From a virus, in IMG/VR virus record IMGVR_UViG_3300044986_000226, positions 1-36,483 of that record: a DNA stretch of 36,483 nt, one strand, 5' to 3'. The position numbers and the translations under genes were made by a program. This document shows, in pieces, positions 24,329 through 32,255 of the stretch (within the stretch, counting starts at the first letter, position 1; each line of letters begins with the position of its first letter). The notes under the pieces were generated by a model. It was not told the origin of the DNA. It searched no databases and saw nothing but the letters and a program-made list of their open reading frames with translations.

Positions 24329-24685
24329 GTGAAAAATAAGTTCGAGTTTTCCCCCGAAGAGGTGGCTGGCCTGAAGAAATTCATGCGAACCATCGCACAC
24401 TTCAAAAAATTGGATCAGGCGTTTCCGCAGTCATATATGGAAGCCCTGCTCCATATCGCCTTGAAGCCGGGGCTTGGCACTTCAGATTACGCGGAGCGTA
24501 TAGAGACATCTAAATCCAACGCCTCGCGTATCTTAGGCATTCTTGGTGAGCGCCCGCGTAGATCAGATGAACACCATGGTCTGATTGAGCAGGAGGATGA
24601 TCCGACTGATGCTCGCAAGACGCACTATTTTTTGACAGCCAAAGGCTACAGCATCCTTAAGAAGGTTCTGGAAGAACAGGCATGA
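24329..24685 (+). CDS. MarR-like winged-helix DNA-binding protein (118 aa)
   Basis: The HTH-wing part spans about 42-115: MEALLHIALKPGLGTSDYAE, RIETSKSNASRILGILGERP, GLIEQEDDPTDARKTHYFLT, AKGYSILKKVLEE. The order recognition helix, then D-R/K-K wing, then A.G helix is that of MarR proteins. It starts with GTG (AAGGG nine bases upstream) and overlaps the integrase by ATGA, so both are made from one message. The context suggests a regulator of the integration decision or of the RNA polymerase gene after it. Confidence 0.75.
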   Translation: MKNKFEFSPEEVAGLKKFMRTIAHFKKLDQAFPQSYMEALLHIALKPGLGTSDYAERIETSKSNASRILGILGERPRRSDEHHGLIEQEDDPTDARKTHYFLTAKGYSILKKVLEEQA

Positions 24686-25860
24686 GCATCTATCTGGAGC
24701 AACGCAACGGCAGACCAACAGGCTTCTGGAAGGTCGAGGTAACTGTTTGTGGTAAGCGTTATGTCGAACGCACAAACAATTACCAGACCGCTGTGCGGAT
24801 TGAGCAGGAACTCAAAACCACGGGTCAACCACCAAACATCAAACGCGACAATATCTATAAGATTGGACACCTTGACGACGACATTCGTCATAGGCTTTGG
24901 GCTGGCCAGAAGGACGAAGAGTATTCCAAGAAACGCTGGAGGCGATGCGCCGCTATCCTTGGTATTGATACGCCAGTGGCAGAAGTCCGCTACGCGCGTA
25001 TGGAGAAGCTCGGAGAACGCCTAAAGCGCGAGGGTCTGAGTAACAAGTCAGTCAATAGATATATGGCTACGGTATCCAAGGCTCTTAGGTGGGCTTGGAA
25101 AAACGAATACATCCTATCAATGCCACCTGTCCCTCGCTTGCACGAGGAGGAAGGCCGCATCGCGTTCTTAAGACACTCAGAGATACCTGAGTTCATGGCC
25201 TATCTATACGAGAACGAGAGGCCGACTACTGCGGTATGCCTTGAGGTGCTGTTGGTCACCGGGATGCGGGCCGGTGAACTCATGTCGCTCAAGAAGCGTA
25301 ACATCGAGATTGATGAACACGACGCCCTGATAGTCCTAACCGACTCAAAGTCTGGCCATGGACGCACTATACCTATCCCACGCGAACTCGGGGTTAAGCT
25401 GGCCAAGCTCGTGGTTGAAGGTCTGCCTGATTACGACCTCTTACTTCGCGCCTGCCATAGGGCATCCGAAGAGGTTGGCACCAAGGACACCATAACGCCG
25501 CACATCCTTAGGCACACAACAGCCACCATTTTGACGGCTCAAGGCACACCCACTTTGGTTGTGGCTGACCTCTTGGGTCACAGGAATTTAGAGACGACTA
25601 GAAAGTATGCTCATCCCACGCGAGAGGCGCTTAGAGATGCGACTCGGTCCATGATGTTGCGTGGTAATGCGCGTGGTAATTCCGAAGAAATGCTTCTGGA
25701 AAACCCAATAAAATCAGTAGAAACAAGCGGCTACGCAAATTTACAGTCCGCCCCCTTTGCCGCTCGGGACATTCCCCCACATGGGGCTGAACCCGTAGAG
25801 AAGCCAAAGACTTCTGTCAAGCGGGCCAAGAGCAACAAACCCAGAACAAACGGCAGATAG
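24682..25860 (+). CDS. int: Tyrosine recombinase / integrase (392 aa)
   Basis: A core-binding domain (about 60-145, with LSNKSVNRYMATVSKALRWA) is followed by the catalytic domain. The active-site set is complete: Arg196 in LLVTGMRAGEL, a Lys in the SKSGHGRTIPIP beta turn, His274 and Arg277 in HILRH, His300 in LLGHRNLETT and the nucleophile Tyr309 in TRKYAHPT. It should catalyse site-specific integration into the host chromosome. After the catalytic domain comes an 80-residue disordered basic tail, unusual in length. It lies between the MarR-like gene and the RNA polymerase gene. Confidence 0.92.
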   Translation: MSIYLEQRNGRPTGFWKVEVTVCGKRYVERTNNYQTAVRIEQELKTTGQPPNIKRDNIYKIGHLDDDIRHRLWAGQKDEEYSKKRWRRCAAILGIDTPVAEVRYARMEKLGERLKREGLSNKSVNRYMATVSKALRWAWKNEYILSMPPVPRLHEEEGRIAFLRHSEIPEFMAYLYENERPTTAVCLEVLLVTGMRAGELMSLKKRNIEIDEHDALIVLTDSKSGHGRTIPIPRELGVKLAKLVVEGLPDYDLLLRACHRASEEVGTKDTITPHILRHTTATILTAQGTPTLVVADLLGHRNLETTRKYAHPTREALRDATRSMMLRGNARGNSEEMLLENPIKSVETSGYANLQSAPFAARDIPPHGAEPVEKPKTSVKRAKSNKPRTNGR

Positions 25861-25993: not shown

Positions 25994-28453
25994 ATGGACG
26001 CTCTGGAAACAACCCTTAGAAACACTGAACATAAAAGATTGAAAACAATCAGTCGGTTGGGATTTGGAGACACCGAAGAAGGCTTAAAGTTAACTGAAGT
26101 ATTCTATGATGAATATCTAGGAATATTCTCATCTATGCTTGAGCTAAACAAAAGGAAAAACGCCCACAAAAAGACCACTAAGCTGATGCTTGACTTACCA
26201 CTTAGGACTTTAGTCTGCGTGGGACTCAACGCTGCTAATACCTGTTTGTTCAACGAAAACAGCACTCTAGGCAACACACTGCGAACCATAGGCACAGCCA
26301 TATACATGGAGTGTTACGGTCGTGCTCTCGCTTTGTGGAATGAAGAGGAGGCGAAGCGTTTAGAAGCTTTGGTCAAATATAAACACGGCTCCCTGAAGCA
26401 TCGGAGAATCGCTCTGCGTGGCTACGCAAAGAAGCTCCAGTCTTTCTCATTTGAACCGTGGACGGACCAAGAGCGCATCTGCGCCGGTAAGCTGGTGCTT
26501 GAGGCCATCCTAGAGGGGCGGGCGTTCTGCCTGACCAAGGATCAACACCTCGACCTCACCCCAGAGGCCATGGCGCACCTTGAGGACATTAGCTCCGACT
26601 TGGTGCTCCGGCGTCTTGTGGGCGTCCCCATGACGGGAGAACCTCTGGTCTGGGATGAAGGCACCCTGCACATTCCTACCCCTGAAGGCGTCCCTCTGCC
26701 CTACCCTCTGGTGCGTTCGTTCCAGAAGCCGGTCAGGGCGCACGTAGACAGGGCTATCCGCAACGGGCAGGCGTCAAAGGTGCTTGAGGCGCTTAACGCT
26801 ATCCAAGGCGTCAAATGGACCATCAACAGGCCAATCCTCGCCTTGGTGAAGCACTGCTACACCCACAACATCCCTGTCCCCGGCCTACCGCAGCAAAGAG
26901 ACCTTCCAGTCCCTGAGAAGCCTGTGGCTTGGGACGATATGACCAAGGACCAGCGTGTCGCATGGCGCCGTAAGGCCAGTGAGATTGCCACCGTAAACCG
27001 TGGCTACATTGGTGAACGTATAATCTTAGCGCGTGACTTTGCGACTGCTGAACATCTGGCTGATGCTGGTGAGTTCTGGATACCCCACAACATTGACTAT
27101 CGTGGTCGTGTGTATGGCGTCCCGCACTTTCAGTTCCAGCGGCAACCACACATCCGTGCGATGTTTCAGTTCGCTGAAGGTCAGCTTGTAGATGCTGAAG
27201 GTCTCTATTGGCTCAAGGTCCATCTGGCCAATGTCGGAGACTTCAACAAAATCTCCAAGGCTCCCTTTGACGAGCGTGTGTGGTGGGTTGATGATAACTG
27301 TGAGCGTCTTCTAGCGACTGCTGCTGATCCTCTCGCTGACCTTTGGTGGCTTGAGGCTGACAAGACGTTCATGTTTGTGGCCGCCTGTATGGCGTTGCGT
27401 GATGCGTATGACGGTAAGCCTGTGCATCTGCCGGTCTCTTTTGACGGCTCTTGCTCTGGCCTACAGCACCTTGCCGCAATGAGTCGCTGTGAGGACACAG
27501 GCGCTCTCGTCAACCTGAAGAACTCTAAGCAACCGGCAGACATCTACCAGACTGTGGCTGACTTGGTGAAAACCAAAGTCACGGCTGATTTATCGTCTGA
27601 GCGCATTTTAGAGTTCCGCAACAAGGATGGCGAGGTCATCAACACAGCGCGCGTGGCTGATCTGGCGCGTAAGCTTTTGGACTATGGCGTCAACCGTTCG
27701 CTGGTGAAGCGTAACGTGATGACATATTCATACTCAAGCAAGCGCGCAGGAATGCAAGACCAAATCCTTGAAGACACTATGCGTCCTTTGCAGCTTCAGT
27801 TTCTCTCAGGAGAAATTGAAAAGCATCCGTTTGGTGATGATGGGGGTTTTGCTGCTGCCCGCTATTTGTCTGAAGTTACCTATCAGTCCATTGTGGAAAC
27901 GGTGAAACGTCCCGCTGTGGTGATGCGTTATCTTCAAGACATTGCGCGTGTCATGAGCCATGAGGAGCGTCCAGTAACGTGGACGACGCCTATTGGGCTT
28001 CCTGTCATGCTGCGGTGTCCTGTGATGGAGACAGATCAGGTCAATCTTTTCCTACACGACAAAGGCGCAAAGATACGCATCAAGCCGCGCACAGCATCTG
28101 AAGCTGGAGGCATGGACAAGCATAGAGCGACACTCGCTGTGGCTCCGAGTTTCGTTCATGCCTACGACGCCGCGCATTTAATGATGGTGGTGTTAGAGGC
28201 CAAGAAACAAGGCATCCATCAGGTTGCTTTGGTTCACGATAGCTTTGGGTGTTTGCCAAATGATGCTGCGCGCTTTCGACAACTGATCAAGGAGACGTTT
28301 GTTCAACTTTACGCAGAGAATGATCCACTAGAACAAATCAAACAGGAAAACTGCGCCTATTTGGTGACACATGGATACAAGCTTCCTGATGTTCCCACCA
28401 AAGGCTCTCTTCAAATCGAGGAAGTGAACCATGCCGAATACGCCTTCGCCTGA
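25994..28453 (+). CDS. T7-type single-subunit DNA-dependent RNA polymerase (819 aa)
   Basis: All active-site motifs are present. IPHNIDYRGRVYGVPHF precedes them. Motif A is VSFDGSCSGLQHLAAM with Asp484, motif B is RSLVKRNVMTYSYSSKRAG with Lys572 and Tyr580, and motif C is LVHDSFG with Asp749. The C-terminus EYAFA resembles the FAFA foot of T7 polymerase. It transcribes phage genes from its own promoters, independent of the host enzyme. I chose the ATG at 25994 with GAGG nine bases upstream. The frame is open further upstream from 25874 (TTG), but that part covers the regulatory motifs and is unlike polymerase. Confidence 0.95.
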   Translation: MDALETTLRNTEHKRLKTISRLGFGDTEEGLKLTEVFYDEYLGIFSSMLELNKRKNAHKKTTKLMLDLPLRTLVCVGLNAANTCLFNENSTLGNTLRTIGTAIYMECYGRALALWNEEEAKRLEALVKYKHGSLKHRRIALRGYAKKLQSFSFEPWTDQERICAGKLVLEAILEGRAFCLTKDQHLDLTPEAMAHLEDISSDLVLRRLVGVPMTGEPLVWDEGTLHIPTPEGVPLPYPLVRSFQKPVRAHVDRAIRNGQASKVLEALNAIQGVKWTINRPILALVKHCYTHNIPVPGLPQQRDLPVPEKPVAWDDMTKDQRVAWRRKASEIATVNRGYIGERIILARDFATAEHLADAGEFWIPHNIDYRGRVYGVPHFQFQRQPHIRAMFQFAEGQLVDAEGLYWLKVHLANVGDFNKISKAPFDERVWWVDDNCERLLATAADPLADLWWLEADKTFMFVAACMALRDAYDGKPVHLPVSFDGSCSGLQHLAAMSRCEDTGALVNLKNSKQPADIYQTVADLVKTKVTADLSSERILEFRNKDGEVINTARVADLARKLLDYGVNRSLVKRNVMTYSYSSKRAGMQDQILEDTMRPLQLQFLSGEIEKHPFGDDGGFAAARYLSEVTYQSIVETVKRPAVVMRYLQDIARVMSHEERPVTWTTPIGLPVMLRCPVMETDQVNLFLHDKGAKIRIKPRTASEAGGMDKHRATLAVAPSFVHAYDAAHLMMVVLEAKKQGIHQVALVHDSFGCLPNDAARFRQLIKETFVQLYAENDPLEQIKQENCAYLVTHGYKLPDVPTKGSLQIEEVNHAEYAFA
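28364..28374 (+). promoter_or_regulatory. Recurring motif, copy F (GTGACACATGG, inside RNA polymerase gene)
   Basis: An 11-base exact match to the motif core near the 3' end of the polymerase gene. It lies in coding sequence, so it may be chance, but class II promoters of T7 also begin right after the polymerase gene. Confidence 0.3.
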
Positions 28454-28640
28454 CGACGATGACTTTGAGCCGCTTACCCAAGAGGAGATGGAGGCGATTT
28501 ACGATCAGTTGCCTCCTTTCAATGAAATGACGCCACAGGACGCCTGCATCGCAGCAGGCTTTCTGTTGGACATGGACATGCCTGTGCCTGTTGACCTTGT
28601 GACCAAGGCACACAGCGCTGGACTTTATATTGCACGCTAA
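28431..28640 (+). CDS. Small acidic protein overlapping the RNA polymerase end (69 aa)
   Basis: MPNTPSPDDDDFEPLTQEEM is followed by YDQLPPFNEMTPQDACIAAG and FLLDMDMPVPVDLVTKAH. It is acidic and overlaps the polymerase gene by 23 bases, with GAGGAAG before the ATG. I do not recognise it. Small genes at this position in T7-like phages include host-enzyme inhibitors, which fits the acidity but is not shown. Confidence 0.6.
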   Translation: MPNTPSPDDDDFEPLTQEEMEAIYDQLPPFNEMTPQDACIAAGFLLDMDMPVPVDLVTKAHSAGLYIAR

Positions 28641-28652
28641 CAAAGGAAAATT

Positions 28653-29171
28653 ATGAGCAAGCATTACATCACTACGCCCATCGGAACCGCTGTTCTTCCC
28701 TTCTTGTTTGAAGAGGACAAAGAGTATGGCGGTTTCAAAATTGCTATCCGTGTGGACAAGAAGACCGCTGAGACGTTCAAGGCGAAGCTTCTCGACACGC
28801 TGAAGAACGAAGAGTTCAAATCCAAGACGCCGCACATTCCGATTGTCGCTGACGAAAAGAATGAAGGCATGTATCTGATCCGCACAAGCTCGAAGTATCA
28901 GCCTGCAGTGTTCGACAGCAAGAATAAGGCGCTGTCAGCGAACACGAAGGTTGGTGGCGGCTCTGAAGTCCGTGCCATCGCTGAAGCTTACAAGTATGAG
29001 GTCCAGAAGAAGGAAGGCATCAAGCTTCGCCTCAAGCAAGTTCAGGTCATTAAGCTTGCTGAAGGTGGTGGCGGCGCTTCCAACTTCGACATGATTGAGG
29101 ATGGCTACGAAGCGGACGACAGCGCTCCGAGTTTTGCTTCGGAGGAAACGGTGAGTGCGCTCGACCTCTAA
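28653..29171 (+). CDS. ssDNA-binding protein, T7 gp2.5 functional analogue (172 aa)
   Basis: An OB-fold-like body begins ITTPIGTAVLPFLFEEDKEY and GGFKIAIRVDKKTAETFKAK. It continues with KVGGGSEVRAIAEAYKYE and a GIKLRLKQVQVIKL strand near residue 125. The last 30 residues are acidic (MIEDGYEADDSAPSFASEET). This layout is that of the DUF2815/gp2.5 type, in which the acidic tail recruits polymerase and helicase. It directly precedes endonuclease I, as in T7. RBS AAAGGA. Confidence 0.8.
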   Translation: MSKHYITTPIGTAVLPFLFEEDKEYGGFKIAIRVDKKTAETFKAKLLDTLKNEEFKSKTPHIPIVADEKNEGMYLIRTSSKYQPAVFDSKNKALSANTKVGGGSEVRAIAEAYKYEVQKKEGIKLRLKQVQVIKLAEGGGGASNFDMIEDGYEADDSAPSFASEETVSALDL

Positions 29172-29583
29172 CGTCAACCCAGTGTTACTTAGAGCAAAGT
29201 ATCGCTCTAAGCTTGAAGAACGAGTAGCGAAACAACTGACCGACAACGGTCTTGAGTTCTCTTATGAGAGCGTCAAGATTAGCTACACGGTCCCTCAAAG
29301 AACTGCCCGCTATACTCCAGATTTTTTGGTTGCTGGCAGTAACATTTTGATTGAGGCCAAAGGAAGATTCCGGTCGGCCTCAGACAGACAGAAGCTGCTT
29401 CTCGTGAAGGAGCAGTATCCAGAGTTAGATCTTCGTCTTCTCTTTCAGAACGCAAATCTACCAATCTACAAGGGAAGCAAAACGACTTACGCCCAGTGGG
29501 CTGAGTCGAATGGTTTCCTTTACGCAGACAAAGGAACAATCCCACAATCATGGCTAACGGAACTAAAGGCACCAACGAAATGA
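29155..29583 (+). CDS. Endonuclease I, Holliday-junction resolvase of T7 gp3 type (142 aa)
   Basis: Residues 13-28 (RAKYRSKLEERVAKQL) carry the first catalytic Glu (21 or 22). Asp56 sits in ARYTPDFLV, and Glu67 and Lys69 sit in ILIEAKGRF, the PD-(D/E)XK signature of T7 endonuclease I. The length is close to the 149 residues of T7 gp3. It resolves branched DNA before packaging and degrades host DNA. The start is GTG, nine bases after GGAGG. It overlaps the SSB gene by 17 bases and the next gene by ATGA. Confidence 0.92.
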   Translation: MRSTSNVNPVLLRAKYRSKLEERVAKQLTDNGLEFSYESVKISYTVPQRTARYTPDFLVAGSNILIEAKGRFRSASDRQKLLLVKEQYPELDLRLLFQNANLPIYKGSKTTYAQWAESNGFLYADKGTIPQSWLTELKAPTK

Positions 29584-29804
29584 ATATCATGAAGCTTCTG
29601 AAACTGAAGCCTCAAGCTCGCAAGGTCTTGAACCATCTGACCAAGCGTAAATCCATCAGCCCTCTAGAAGCTCTCCATGTCTACGGCATCTATCGGTTAG
29701 CCGCCTGCATCCACGAGCTTCGTAAGACTGGCATCCAGATCAACACCGTGATGAAGGCCGATGCTTCTGGTCATCACTACGCTCGCTATGAGGTGGCTGC
29801 GTGA
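29580..29804 (+). CDS. HTH_39-like DNA-binding protein (74 aa)
   Basis: QARKVLNHLTKRKSISPLEA is followed by LHVYGIYRLAACIHELRKTG and IQINTVMKADASGHHYARYE. This pattern, a helix, ISPLEALHVYGI..LAACIHELR and a short strand, is that of the HTH_39 family often seen in phages. I chose the ATG at 29580 because it overlaps the endonuclease stop (ATGA) and has AAAGG 10 bases upstream. The ATG at 29550 lacks a site. It could regulate the replication genes. Confidence 0.7.
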   Translation: MNIMKLLKLKPQARKVLNHLTKRKSISPLEALHVYGIYRLAACIHELRKTGIQINTVMKADASGHHYARYEVAA

Positions 29805-30439
29805 GCAACTTTAACGACAAGCCCGAAGCAAACTTTATTTACTCGGGATATGGACGACACATCAACTACAGCCTCGAAGATTTTGATGCAGACTACTTGC
29901 CGCGAATGCTGTCAGTGTTCGCAGAGTATCTTCGGGCCTGTGGCTTTGTGTATGTGGACGTAAGACCTGTCGAGGGCGGCTGGTTGTTCACCAAAGACTA
30001 CGACTCGATCAACGATGACGACACTTGGTCCCGCCCTGAGTTTAACTCTGAACTCTATGGCCTTGATGATGATGATGAGGACCAGTCTGAAATCAATCAG
30101 GCTGCTGAAGACTACTGGGACAAGGCTGTCGATGATGCAGTAGCCGCCGAAGAGGTCGAAGCCGGTGACACCGTGTTCTACCACGGTCGTGGTGAAGGCG
30201 AGACGACGCTTAATGACCATGAGCAGCCGCAGGGTCACGGTGGGCGCACTGGCATTTCTCTTATCAACATGAAGGGAAAGGTCGTGATGGTTACAAGCAG
30301 TCCTGTTGGCCCTCGTGTCCTCGTCAAGTGGAACAACTGGTATGACGGTCACAACGGTATGGGTGATGACCCGAATGCTGTGATGAGCGCCAAGAACTAC
30401 TGGTGGTCGAACGTCAATAACGTGAGCAAGAGCAACTGA
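29801..30439 (+). CDS. Hypothetical replication-module protein (212 aa)
   Basis: Three parts are visible. The N-terminal part has aromatic-rich strands (ANFIYSGYGRHINYSLEDFD), the middle is a very acidic segment (YGLDDDDEDQSEINQAAEDY), and the C-terminal part has a possible small beta barrel (INMKGKVVMVTSSPVGPRVL, then VKWNNWYDGHNGMGDD). A GHGGR motif lies near residue 148. Not recognised. The GTG start overlaps the previous stop by four bases. Confidence 0.6.
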   Translation: MSNFNDKPEANFIYSGYGRHINYSLEDFDADYLPRMLSVFAEYLRACGFVYVDVRPVEGGWLFTKDYDSINDDDTWSRPEFNSELYGLDDDDEDQSEINQAAEDYWDKAVDDAVAAEEVEAGDTVFYHGRGEGETTLNDHEQPQGHGGRTGISLINMKGKVVMVTSSPVGPRVLVKWNNWYDGHNGMGDDPNAVMSAKNYWWSNVNNVSKSN

Positions 30440-30440
30440 T

Positions 30441-30662
30441 ATGGGCTTACACCATTCAGCCTTTCAGTATCTGATGCCAACCACAGATCAGTTGGAGCAG
30501 ATGCAGCTTGTGCGTGGTGACTTTGAAATCTTCGTAAAGCTCTTGGATTACAAGTTACCTGAAGGGCCAGACAAAGAGCATGTATTTCGTCTAATTCGTG
30601 ATGCTGCAATGTGGTCAAACGTGTGTATCACACGACATGCTGATGGCTCGCCGCGAGACTAA
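30441..30662 (+). CDS. Acb2/Tad1-like helical-hairpin protein, possible anti-CBASS/anti-Thoeris (73 aa)
   Basis: Two helices (about 13-36 and 43-66) joined by a LPEGPDKEH turn. The second helix, HVFRLIRDAAMWSNVCITRH, has the pattern 'L..l.eA..WaN..I.R'. This matches widespread short phage proteins now grouped as the Acb2/Tad1 hairpin family, whose studied members sequester cyclic nucleotide or gcADPR signals. Not all family members have shown anti-defence activity. Identification is by motif recall. It sits between two replication genes, so defence evasion would be early. Confidence 0.6.
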   Translation: MGLHHSAFQYLMPTTDQLEQMQLVRGDFEIFVKLLDYKLPEGPDKEHVFRLIRDAAMWSNVCITRHADGSPRD

Positions 30663-30680
30663 CAAAAAGAGAAACTGAAA

Positions 30681-32255
30681 TTGGGAATCTTCGTAAAGCA
30701 TATCGCCTGTGACAACTGTGGGTCATCTGACGGCAACTCTCTGTATGAAGATGGCACGACTTATTGTTTCGTGTGTAATGCTTACGGAGGTTCCTCAGCC
30801 AACGAGGATAAAGTGGACAATGGGAAATTACTGGAGCGAGATTCAAGACTACTACAAGGCTTTTTCACCGACTTACCTAAACGAGGTATACGAGAAAGCA
30901 CTTGCCGAAAGTTCGGATACAAAACAGGCACAGATGCAAGTGGTGAATCCTGTCACATTGCTAACTATTACGACTCTCGAGGCAGCGTTGTTGCTCAGAA
31001 ACTACGCAAACCCAACAAGCACTTTGCGTGGGTGGGAGAAAGAGGCTCATGCCTTCCTCTCTGGGGTCAGCATTTATGGACCTCCGGTAAATCTGTCGTC
31101 ATCACCGAAGGAGAAATAGACTGTCTCAGTGTCGCTGCTGCATTCGACGATAAGAACTACGCTGTCGTCAGTCTGCCTGATGGTGCTCAGAGCGCAGTCA
31201 AAGCGATAACCAAAGCTTACGAGTGGCTCTGTGGCTTCGAGAAGATTGTCCTCTGCTTCGATCAGGACGAACCGGGACAGAAGGCGATGCAACAGGTGGC
31301 TGAGATGCTGCCTGTTGGCAAAGTCTACACAATGCGTCTTCAGCGTAAGGACGCCAATGAAGTCTTAGTCAATGATGGTAAGGCTCCTATCACCCGAGCC
31401 TTCTGGGATGCTGCTGAGTGGCGTCCAGATGGCATTGTGGATGGTAAGGAGCTTTGGGAGACTATTCTCTCCACTAAGGAAGCTGAGAGCGTTGGGTATC
31501 CGTGGCCTGTGGTAAACATTAAGACCCATGGCCTACGAAGAGGTGAGTTGGTTACGGTCACCGCTGGATCAGGTATCGGCAAGTCAGCCTTTGTTCGTGA
31601 GATTTCCTACAACCTCCTGAGCATTGGTGAGACTGTCGGCATGATTATGTTGGAGGAGAGCACCACGAGAACCGCTATGGGTATCATGGGGCTTCACATC
31701 AACCGTCCGCTGCACTTGGGTCGTGAAGGTGTGTCTACTGATGACCTACGCAAAGCCTTCACAGCTACTGTCGGCTCAGGTCGTCTCTATCTCTACGACC
31801 ACTTTGGCTCCACTGAAATCGACAACCTTCTGAACCGTGTGCGCTACATGGCGAAAGCTATTGGCTGTAAATGGATCATACTTGACCACTTGTCGATTGT
31901 GGTCTCGGCGCTGGAAGGAAACGACGAGCGTAAGCTGATTGATAGAGCCATGACACTGTTGCGAACCTTAGTCCAAGAGACAGGTATTGGCTTGGTGTTG
32001 GTGTCTCACCTTCGGCGTCCTGATGGCAAAGGCGATGAAGAAGGCGCGGCGACTTCGTTGAACCGCCTCCGTGGTTCGCACAGCATCGCCCAATTGTCGG
32101 ATTTGGTGATTGGCCTAGAGCGCAATCAGCAAGGTGATGATCCAGACAAGACAATCATTCGTGTCCTGAAGAACAGATACTCAGGTGAAACAGGAGAAGC
32201 AGGATGCCTACACTACGACAAGCTTACAGGGAGAATGAATGAGTCAACCATCTGA
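30681..32255 (+). CDS. Bifunctional primase-helicase, T7 gp4 type (524 aa)
   Basis: A zinc-binding motif CDNC...CFVC (Cys10, Cys13, Cys29, Cys32) is followed by a TOPRIM domain (VVITEGEIDCLSV, then IVLCFDQDEPGQKA). The RecA-type helicase follows, with Walker A TAGSGIGKSAFVRE, MLEESTTRTAMGIMGLH, Walker B WIILDHLSIV, and VSHLRRP. It makes primers and unwinds DNA at the fork. The start is TTG at 30681, because the frame has a stop only 21 bases earlier and the zinc motif begins nine residues later. The acidic C-terminal tail known in T7 gp4 is not evident. Confidence 0.93.
   Translation: MGIFVKHIACDNCGSSDGNSLYEDGTTYCFVCNAYGGSSANEDKVDNGKLLERDSRLLQGFFTDLPKRGIRESTCRKFGYKTGTDASGESCHIANYYDSRGSVVAQKLRKPNKHFAWVGERGSCLPLWGQHLWTSGKSVVITEGEIDCLSVAAAFDDKNYAVVSLPDGAQSAVKAITKAYEWLCGFEKIVLCFDQDEPGQKAMQQVAEMLPVGKVYTMRLQRKDANEVLVNDGKAPITRAFWDAAEWRPDGIVDGKELWETILSTKEAESVGYPWPVVNIKTHGLRRGELVTVTAGSGIGKSAFVREISYNLLSIGETVGMIMLEESTTRTAMGIMGLHINRPLHLGREGVSTDDLRKAFTATVGSGRLYLYDHFGSTEIDNLLNRVRYMAKAIGCKWIILDHLSIVVSALEGNDERKLIDRAMTLLRTLVQETGIGLVLVSHLRRPDGKGDEEGAATSLNRLRGSHSIAQLSDLVIGLERNQQGDDPDKTIIRVLKNRYSGETGEAGCLHYDKLTGRMNESTI

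Follow-up and report, generated by a model that had tools for sequence, protein, structure and literature searches.

A 73-residue protein encoded in the replication module of an uncultured, T7-like, integrase-bearing phage is a new member of the known Acb2 family, in an uncultured branch of that family, and we consider it probable that its gene encodes an Acb2-family nucleotide sponge. The evidence comes from the window, by which we mean the whole virus record of 36,483 bases that was analysed, and from relatives of the protein found in other phage and bacterial contigs.

A conserved gene in the replication module of a T7-like phage

An earlier note, made from the letters of this DNA alone, had claimed a 73-residue open reading frame at 30441-30662 and had singled out a WsN..I.R motif within it. 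The frame matches exactly on the plus strand, from ATG to TAA, and the motif is present as W58-S-N60-V-C-I63-T-R65. An overlapping minus-strand frame, also of 73 amino acids (30397-30618), was rejected as a real gene, as conservation across many contigs favours the plus frame. The plus-strand frame is a real, conserved gene, and it and its immediate neighbours are as follows.

29801..30439, plus strand: 212-aa orphan gene, directly upstream of the acb2-like gene
30441..30662, plus strand: acb2-like gene, 73 aa, ATG start and TAA stop; PF24729, phrog_1454, AlphaFold2 model and PDB match
30681..32255, plus strand: primase-helicase (T7 gp4-like; phrog_239, E 3.9e-180), which lies next downstream and identifies the replication slot

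The claim that the gene lies within a replication module agrees with its surroundings, which run in the order phage RNA polymerase, gp2.5-like single-stranded DNA-binding protein (SSB), endonuclease I, winged-helix HTH protein, 212-aa orphan, acb2-like gene, primase-helicase, family A DNA polymerase and ThyX. The packing is tight: the acb2-like gene starts 1 base past the stop codon of the orphan gene, and 18 bases separate its end from the TTG start of the primase-helicase. For the orphan, no Pfam match above cut-off, no PHROG and no match among phages was found. The window's DNA polymerase has its closest relatives, none more than 47% identical, in phages of Roseobacter and in other Autographiviridae.

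Other features of this region were recorded. An integrase gene lies at 24682-25860, directly upstream of the T7-like RNA polymerase gene, and this arrangement suggests a temperate member of the T7-like phages, in the manner of LUZ100 or the integrase-bearing pelagiphages. The winged-helix protein (84 aa, HTH_39; 29550-29804) occupies the slot that holds the gp3.5 lysozyme in related T7-like phages, and no lysozyme gene was seen in the window between endonuclease I and the primase-helicase. A scan of 28300-31000 found no sigma-70-type promoter.

Sequence profiles place the protein in the Acb2/Tad1-hairpin family

The earlier note had associated the protein with the Acb2/Tad1 hairpin family, and this placement is upheld by Pfam, PHROGs, an independent HMM, profile-profile comparison and structure comparison. 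The only Pfam match of the window protein is PF24729, Acb2_Tad1_hairpin (E 1.8e-4), and at 22 bits the protein alone falls below the gathering cut-off of 27 bits. Two of its siblings, scanned singly, exceed that cut-off, and PF24729 is matched by every sequence of our 22-sequence branch alignment (22/22 at E<0.1, best E 1.5e-9) as well as by T4 Vs.4, Pseudomonas Acb2 and 9ptq (Acb2 homolog 43). A PHROGs search with the window protein returned phrog_1454 at E 2.7e-10; NCBIfam returned no match. The independent HMM was built from eight sequences, seven Acb2-type proteins of cultured phages and 9ptq, with none from the window branch; it gave the window protein 44.6 bits, against a best score of 11.6 among 5,000 shuffled versions of that protein. 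Comparison of the branch profile with that of the broad family (hhalign) gave E 2.9e-15.

The route from the branch to the proteins of solved structure is less direct. A nine-sequence family profile searched against the PDB reached 9ptq at 1e-9, and Tad1 and T4 Vs.4 more weakly. A phmmer search of PDB sequences with the single window protein gave matches at chance level only, and a profile made from the branch alone reached no Acb2 sequence in the PDB, probably through loss from the branch of the GREK-T motif. Because the branch-only profile misses these sequences, the link to known Acb2 proteins runs through the wider family and through structure.

The best matches from cultured phages belong to cluster E mycobacteriophages, at about 32% identity, and one of them is annotated 'cyclic nucleotide inhibitor'; the product of the cluster E gene has been reported to be of Acb2 type, its role being unknown (PMC11953737). 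These proteins (for example, Balomoji gp102) are of similar size to the window protein and are likewise encoded in a DNA-metabolism region, near SSB and endonuclease VII genes, but they retain GREK-T and lack the C-terminal TRxxDGxPR tail.

The predicted fold is that of an Acb2 hairpin

The two-helix pattern read from the sequence in the earlier note is seen in an AlphaFold2 monomer model made with the 22-sequence alignment (pLDDT 95.8). The model has a short N-terminal segment and two long antiparallel helices, with no other domain, and its C-terminal tail, which carries an isolated bridge (65/71), is predicted to fold back onto the helix end. The parts of the protein map to the DNA as follows.

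30462..30482, plus strand: N-terminal segment F8-x-Y10-L-x-P13-T14, placed by the profile alignment register and the T4 residue roles
30483..30554, plus strand: helix 1, residues 15-38 (AlphaFold2), with M21 and R25 invariant in 22/22
30567..30632, plus strand: helix 2, residues 43-64 (AlphaFold2), with invariant D44, R50, R53, M57, W58 and N60
30633..30659, plus strand: C-terminal tail R65-xx-D-G-x-P-R-D, branch-specific, with R65, G69, P71 and R72 invariant in 22/22

When this model was compared with known structures using VIA-align, the first-ranked entry was 9ptq, in complex with 3'cADPR (Z 7.6, 1.5 A over 63 residues); 7uq2 (T4 Vs.4, Z 6.6) and 8h2x (Z 6.2) completed the top three and 8h2j stood at row 6 (Z 5.8), although for helical hairpins Z below about 13 is indecisive, all values here are below 8, and unrelated helical proteins are interleaved from Z 6.2 downwards. 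Foldseek against the PDB also put 9ptq first, with a probability of 0.92 and 0.9 A over 50 columns, at E-values above 1, and the eleven best matches in BFVD are all named 'Acb2/Tad1 hairpin domain-containing'. An earlier model made from four sequences (pLDDT 80) had no clear Foldseek match, yet T4 Vs.4 was its top VIA-align row. Both the profile similarity and the structural similarity on which the earlier note had staked its assignment were therefore found. Two-helix scores alone are insufficient; fold scores and profiles together make kinship with Acb2 very likely.

Comparison with individual members shows what is shared and what is altered. Acb2 homolog 43 has the length, the two-helix hairpin and the N-terminal F of the window protein, together with a basic residue at position 25 (K20), a P-E-G-x-[DE]-K turn and the A-M motif of helix 2; it differs in its overall sequence (18% identity), in having T5 instead of Y10, in retaining GREK and K-T where the window branch has GPDK and R50, and in lacking an aligned W-x-N. 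T4 Vs.4 shares the Pfam family and the M75-W76 pair (M57-W58 in the window protein), but its inter-helix region is longer and identity in the structural alignment is 9%. Pseudomonas phage Acb2 (8h2j/8h2x, p26) shares the Pfam family, a Tyr and a Lys at 15-residue spacing and the fold at Z 5.8-6.2, but has about 20 more residues between the helices and a different C-terminus. Tad1 (7uav, 8kbf) has a helical hairpin domain that gives weak profile and fold matches. Identity with Tad1 itself is ruled out: the window protein has only 73 residues, modelled as two helices and an isolated bridge, and the N-terminal beta-sheet domain of Tad1 is missing. The analysis therefore supports placement in the Acb2/Tad1-hairpin family, of Acb2 type and not Tad1.

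A candidate ligand site that is kept in part

T4 Vs.4 binds cGAMP through Y8, which stacks on the ligand, and through F82, H11, K23 and R79, and its hexamerisation requires L29, A66, A73 and A77 (PMC10097602). In an ungapped profile alignment, T4 Y8 corresponds to Y10 of the window protein and T4 K23 to R25, with equal 15-residue spacing, and the helix-cap residue T12 of T4 aligns with T14. Position 10 is Y or F in all 22 relatives, and R25 is present in all 22. The earlier note had left the signal-binding residues to structural comparison. Alignment with T4 Vs.4 gives a divided answer: the Tyr/basic pair is kept as Y10/R25, whereas H11, R79 and F82 are not kept and align with P13, V61 and T64. 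Pseudomonas Acb2, too, is without F82, and the H11/R79/F82 set is therefore not family-defining; 9ptq in turn has Thr at the Tyr position, and from these two cases it follows that the Acb2 family tolerates such changes at the site.

The C-terminal register to T4 Vs.4 was set by hand, with an anchor that is supported by the alignment of T4 to the broad family. In this register, the hexamer-interface residues A66/A73/A77 of T4 correspond to V48/A55/S59, and T4 T68, K71 and W76 correspond to R50, R53 and W58. In a T4-like phage protein, the mutation T68M lowers binding affinity (PMC12657230). The branch has GPDK...R where the wider family has GREK...T, so one pocket may be remodelled. Judged from the residues, we infer that the pocket of the branch may have been retuned, with R50, R53, R65 and R72 as possible phosphate contacts.

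The ligand candidates would be CBASS oligonucleotides or Thoeris cADPR isomers, and the clues to the choice conflict, as the closest solved relative binds 3'cADPR without the Tyr and T4 Vs.4 binds cGAMP by means of it. A sponge specific to Thoeris, binding a cyclic ADP-ribose isomer and not the cyclic oligonucleotides of CBASS, is a possible narrower reading that we entertain only tentatively. In its favour, both profile and fold comparison lead to Acb2 homolog 43 with 3'cADPR as the nearest solved structure, and the invariant R50 and R53 stand at the positions of a Thr and a Lys in T4 Vs.4. However, the T5 of 9ptq stands at Y10 of the window protein, which retains the very Tyr/basic pair that T4 uses for cGAMP, and closeness alone does not reveal the ligand within the Acb2 family.

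The branch and its relatives

The branch has the consensus LHxSTFEYLKPTxxQxxxMxxxR...LPDGPDKTYxLRxLRxxAMWANVCITRxxDGxPR, and to the invariant residues listed above for the helices and the tail are added P13 and G42, so that P13, M21, R25, G42, D44, R50, R53, M57, W58, N60, R65, G69, P71 and R72 are identical in 22/22 sequences. Scans of IMG/VR found about 30 loci that encode a branch protein, at 39-88% identity. Three of these are on related contigs, where an 88% identical protein is encoded in the same place; their genes differ from the window gene by 13-14 synonymous and 11 non-synonymous substitutions, counts that point to purifying selection. Two genome contigs, one of a Rhizobiales isolate and the other of a Verrucomicrobia MAG, also carry a branch member. 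A tblastn search of 50,697 phage records with one branch member found no member of the branch and only mycobacteriophage matches at 32-35% identity, so the branch appears uncultured.

Two of the relatives deserve separate mention. The relative on a 40-kb contig of the Rhizobiales isolate genome (5998-6216) is 46% identical and lies a little upstream of genes for the terminase small and large subunits, in what looks like a prophage; of the defence families tried there, SMODS cyclase, ThsB_TIR and TIR_2, none had a match in that genome, an uninformative negative that ties the gene to no host or defence system. In another contig (L048, 5001-5180), the reading frame leaves the family pattern past residue 50, by a frameshift or a sequencing error, and this relative is possibly a broken copy.

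The gene looks like an exchanged accessory cassette

DNA comparison of contigs that carry the branch gene shows higher identity in the gene than in its flanks. L018 and L019 are 99.5% identical over the acb2-like gene, but in the preceding gene identity drops to 55-78% across its first half, and just downstream it is 73-87%; L019 and L001 are 100% identical over the gene and 60-72% further upstream. A gene at 99.5-100% identity within flanks that are mostly 55-87% identical looks like a recently exchanged cassette. Sliding identity of the 212-aa orphan against L001 and L019 shows that its N-terminal part (about 50-67% DNA identity) has been swapped between relatives, whereas its C-terminal third, the last 75 or so residues, is 92-97% identical and travels with the acb2-like gene. 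A 19-nt near-repeat (89%) occurs at 30522-30540, inside the acb2-like gene, and at 30681-30699, at the start of the primase-helicase; it is a possible recombination site at the cassette edge.

Elsewhere, the neighbours of the branch gene include terminase large subunit, terminase small subunit, portal, Sak4-like annealing protein and DNA polymerase genes, and the gene moves between replication and packaging loci. It is absent from the stretch examined in Roseobacter phages CRP-804 and CRP-125 and in Pseudomonas phage LUZ100, where the slot holds other genes. Exchange and varied neighbours are the behaviour of an accessory anti-defence gene.

This setting bears on another explanation, in which the Acb2 hairpin has been repurposed to serve in replication or packaging, perhaps as a small accessory factor that binds nucleotides or proteins, and takes no part in immune evasion. 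On several contigs the gene does adjoin those for DNA polymerase, Sak4-like annealing protein, primase-helicase or terminase, and the T4 contact set is kept in part only. We nevertheless regard a replication or packaging role as improbable, given that the neighbours vary from contig to contig, that the gene is missing from this region of three cultured relatives among the T7-like phages, that it passes between phages as an accessory cassette, and that its invariant Arg residues suit the binding of an anion such as phosphate. That an unrelated two-helix protein resembles Acb2 by chance is hardly credible: hairpins of two helices occur in many proteins, the Foldseek E-values for PDB matches exceed 1 and the window protein lies under the Pfam cut-off, but against this stand the shuffle control, the branch-wide Pfam matches, phrog_1454, the profile-profile E-value, the fold ranking and a conserved pattern of F-x-Y, R25, P-x-G-x-[DE]-K, A-M-W-x-N and R65.

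A proposed nucleotide sponge

We return to the sponge as the preferred reading. By analogy with the family, six copies of the window protein would form a hexamer of helical hairpins, with pockets at the protomer interfaces lined by Y10, which would stack on a base, and R25, which would contact a phosphate. These pockets would take up the cyclic nucleotide that a CBASS or Thoeris enzyme of the host produces as an alarm signal, sequestering it and not degrading it, so that the suicide effector would stay off and the phage would replicate. The hexamer, the ligand binding and the anti-defence effect are all inferred for this protein from its relatives. Single sponge proteins can act against several systems (PMC12043709), and Panoptes makes sponges into triggers (PMC12657218).

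The branch might also be an Acb2 subfamily whose rebuilt pocket (R50/R53 and the R-xx-DG-x-PR tail) binds a signal outside the known Acb2 range. We think this unlikely; if true, it would point to a host nucleotide-signalling defence that has not yet been matched to a sponge. Acb2-type sponges reveal which alarm molecules phage hosts use. The branch described here comes from some 30 phage contigs of environmental origin and from two bacterial genome assemblies, and it has only distant cultured relatives (32-35% in phage records), so the signalling defences of its hosts are largely unsampled. Its distinct invariant residues and the small size of the protein, 73 residues, make its ligand specificity directly testable.
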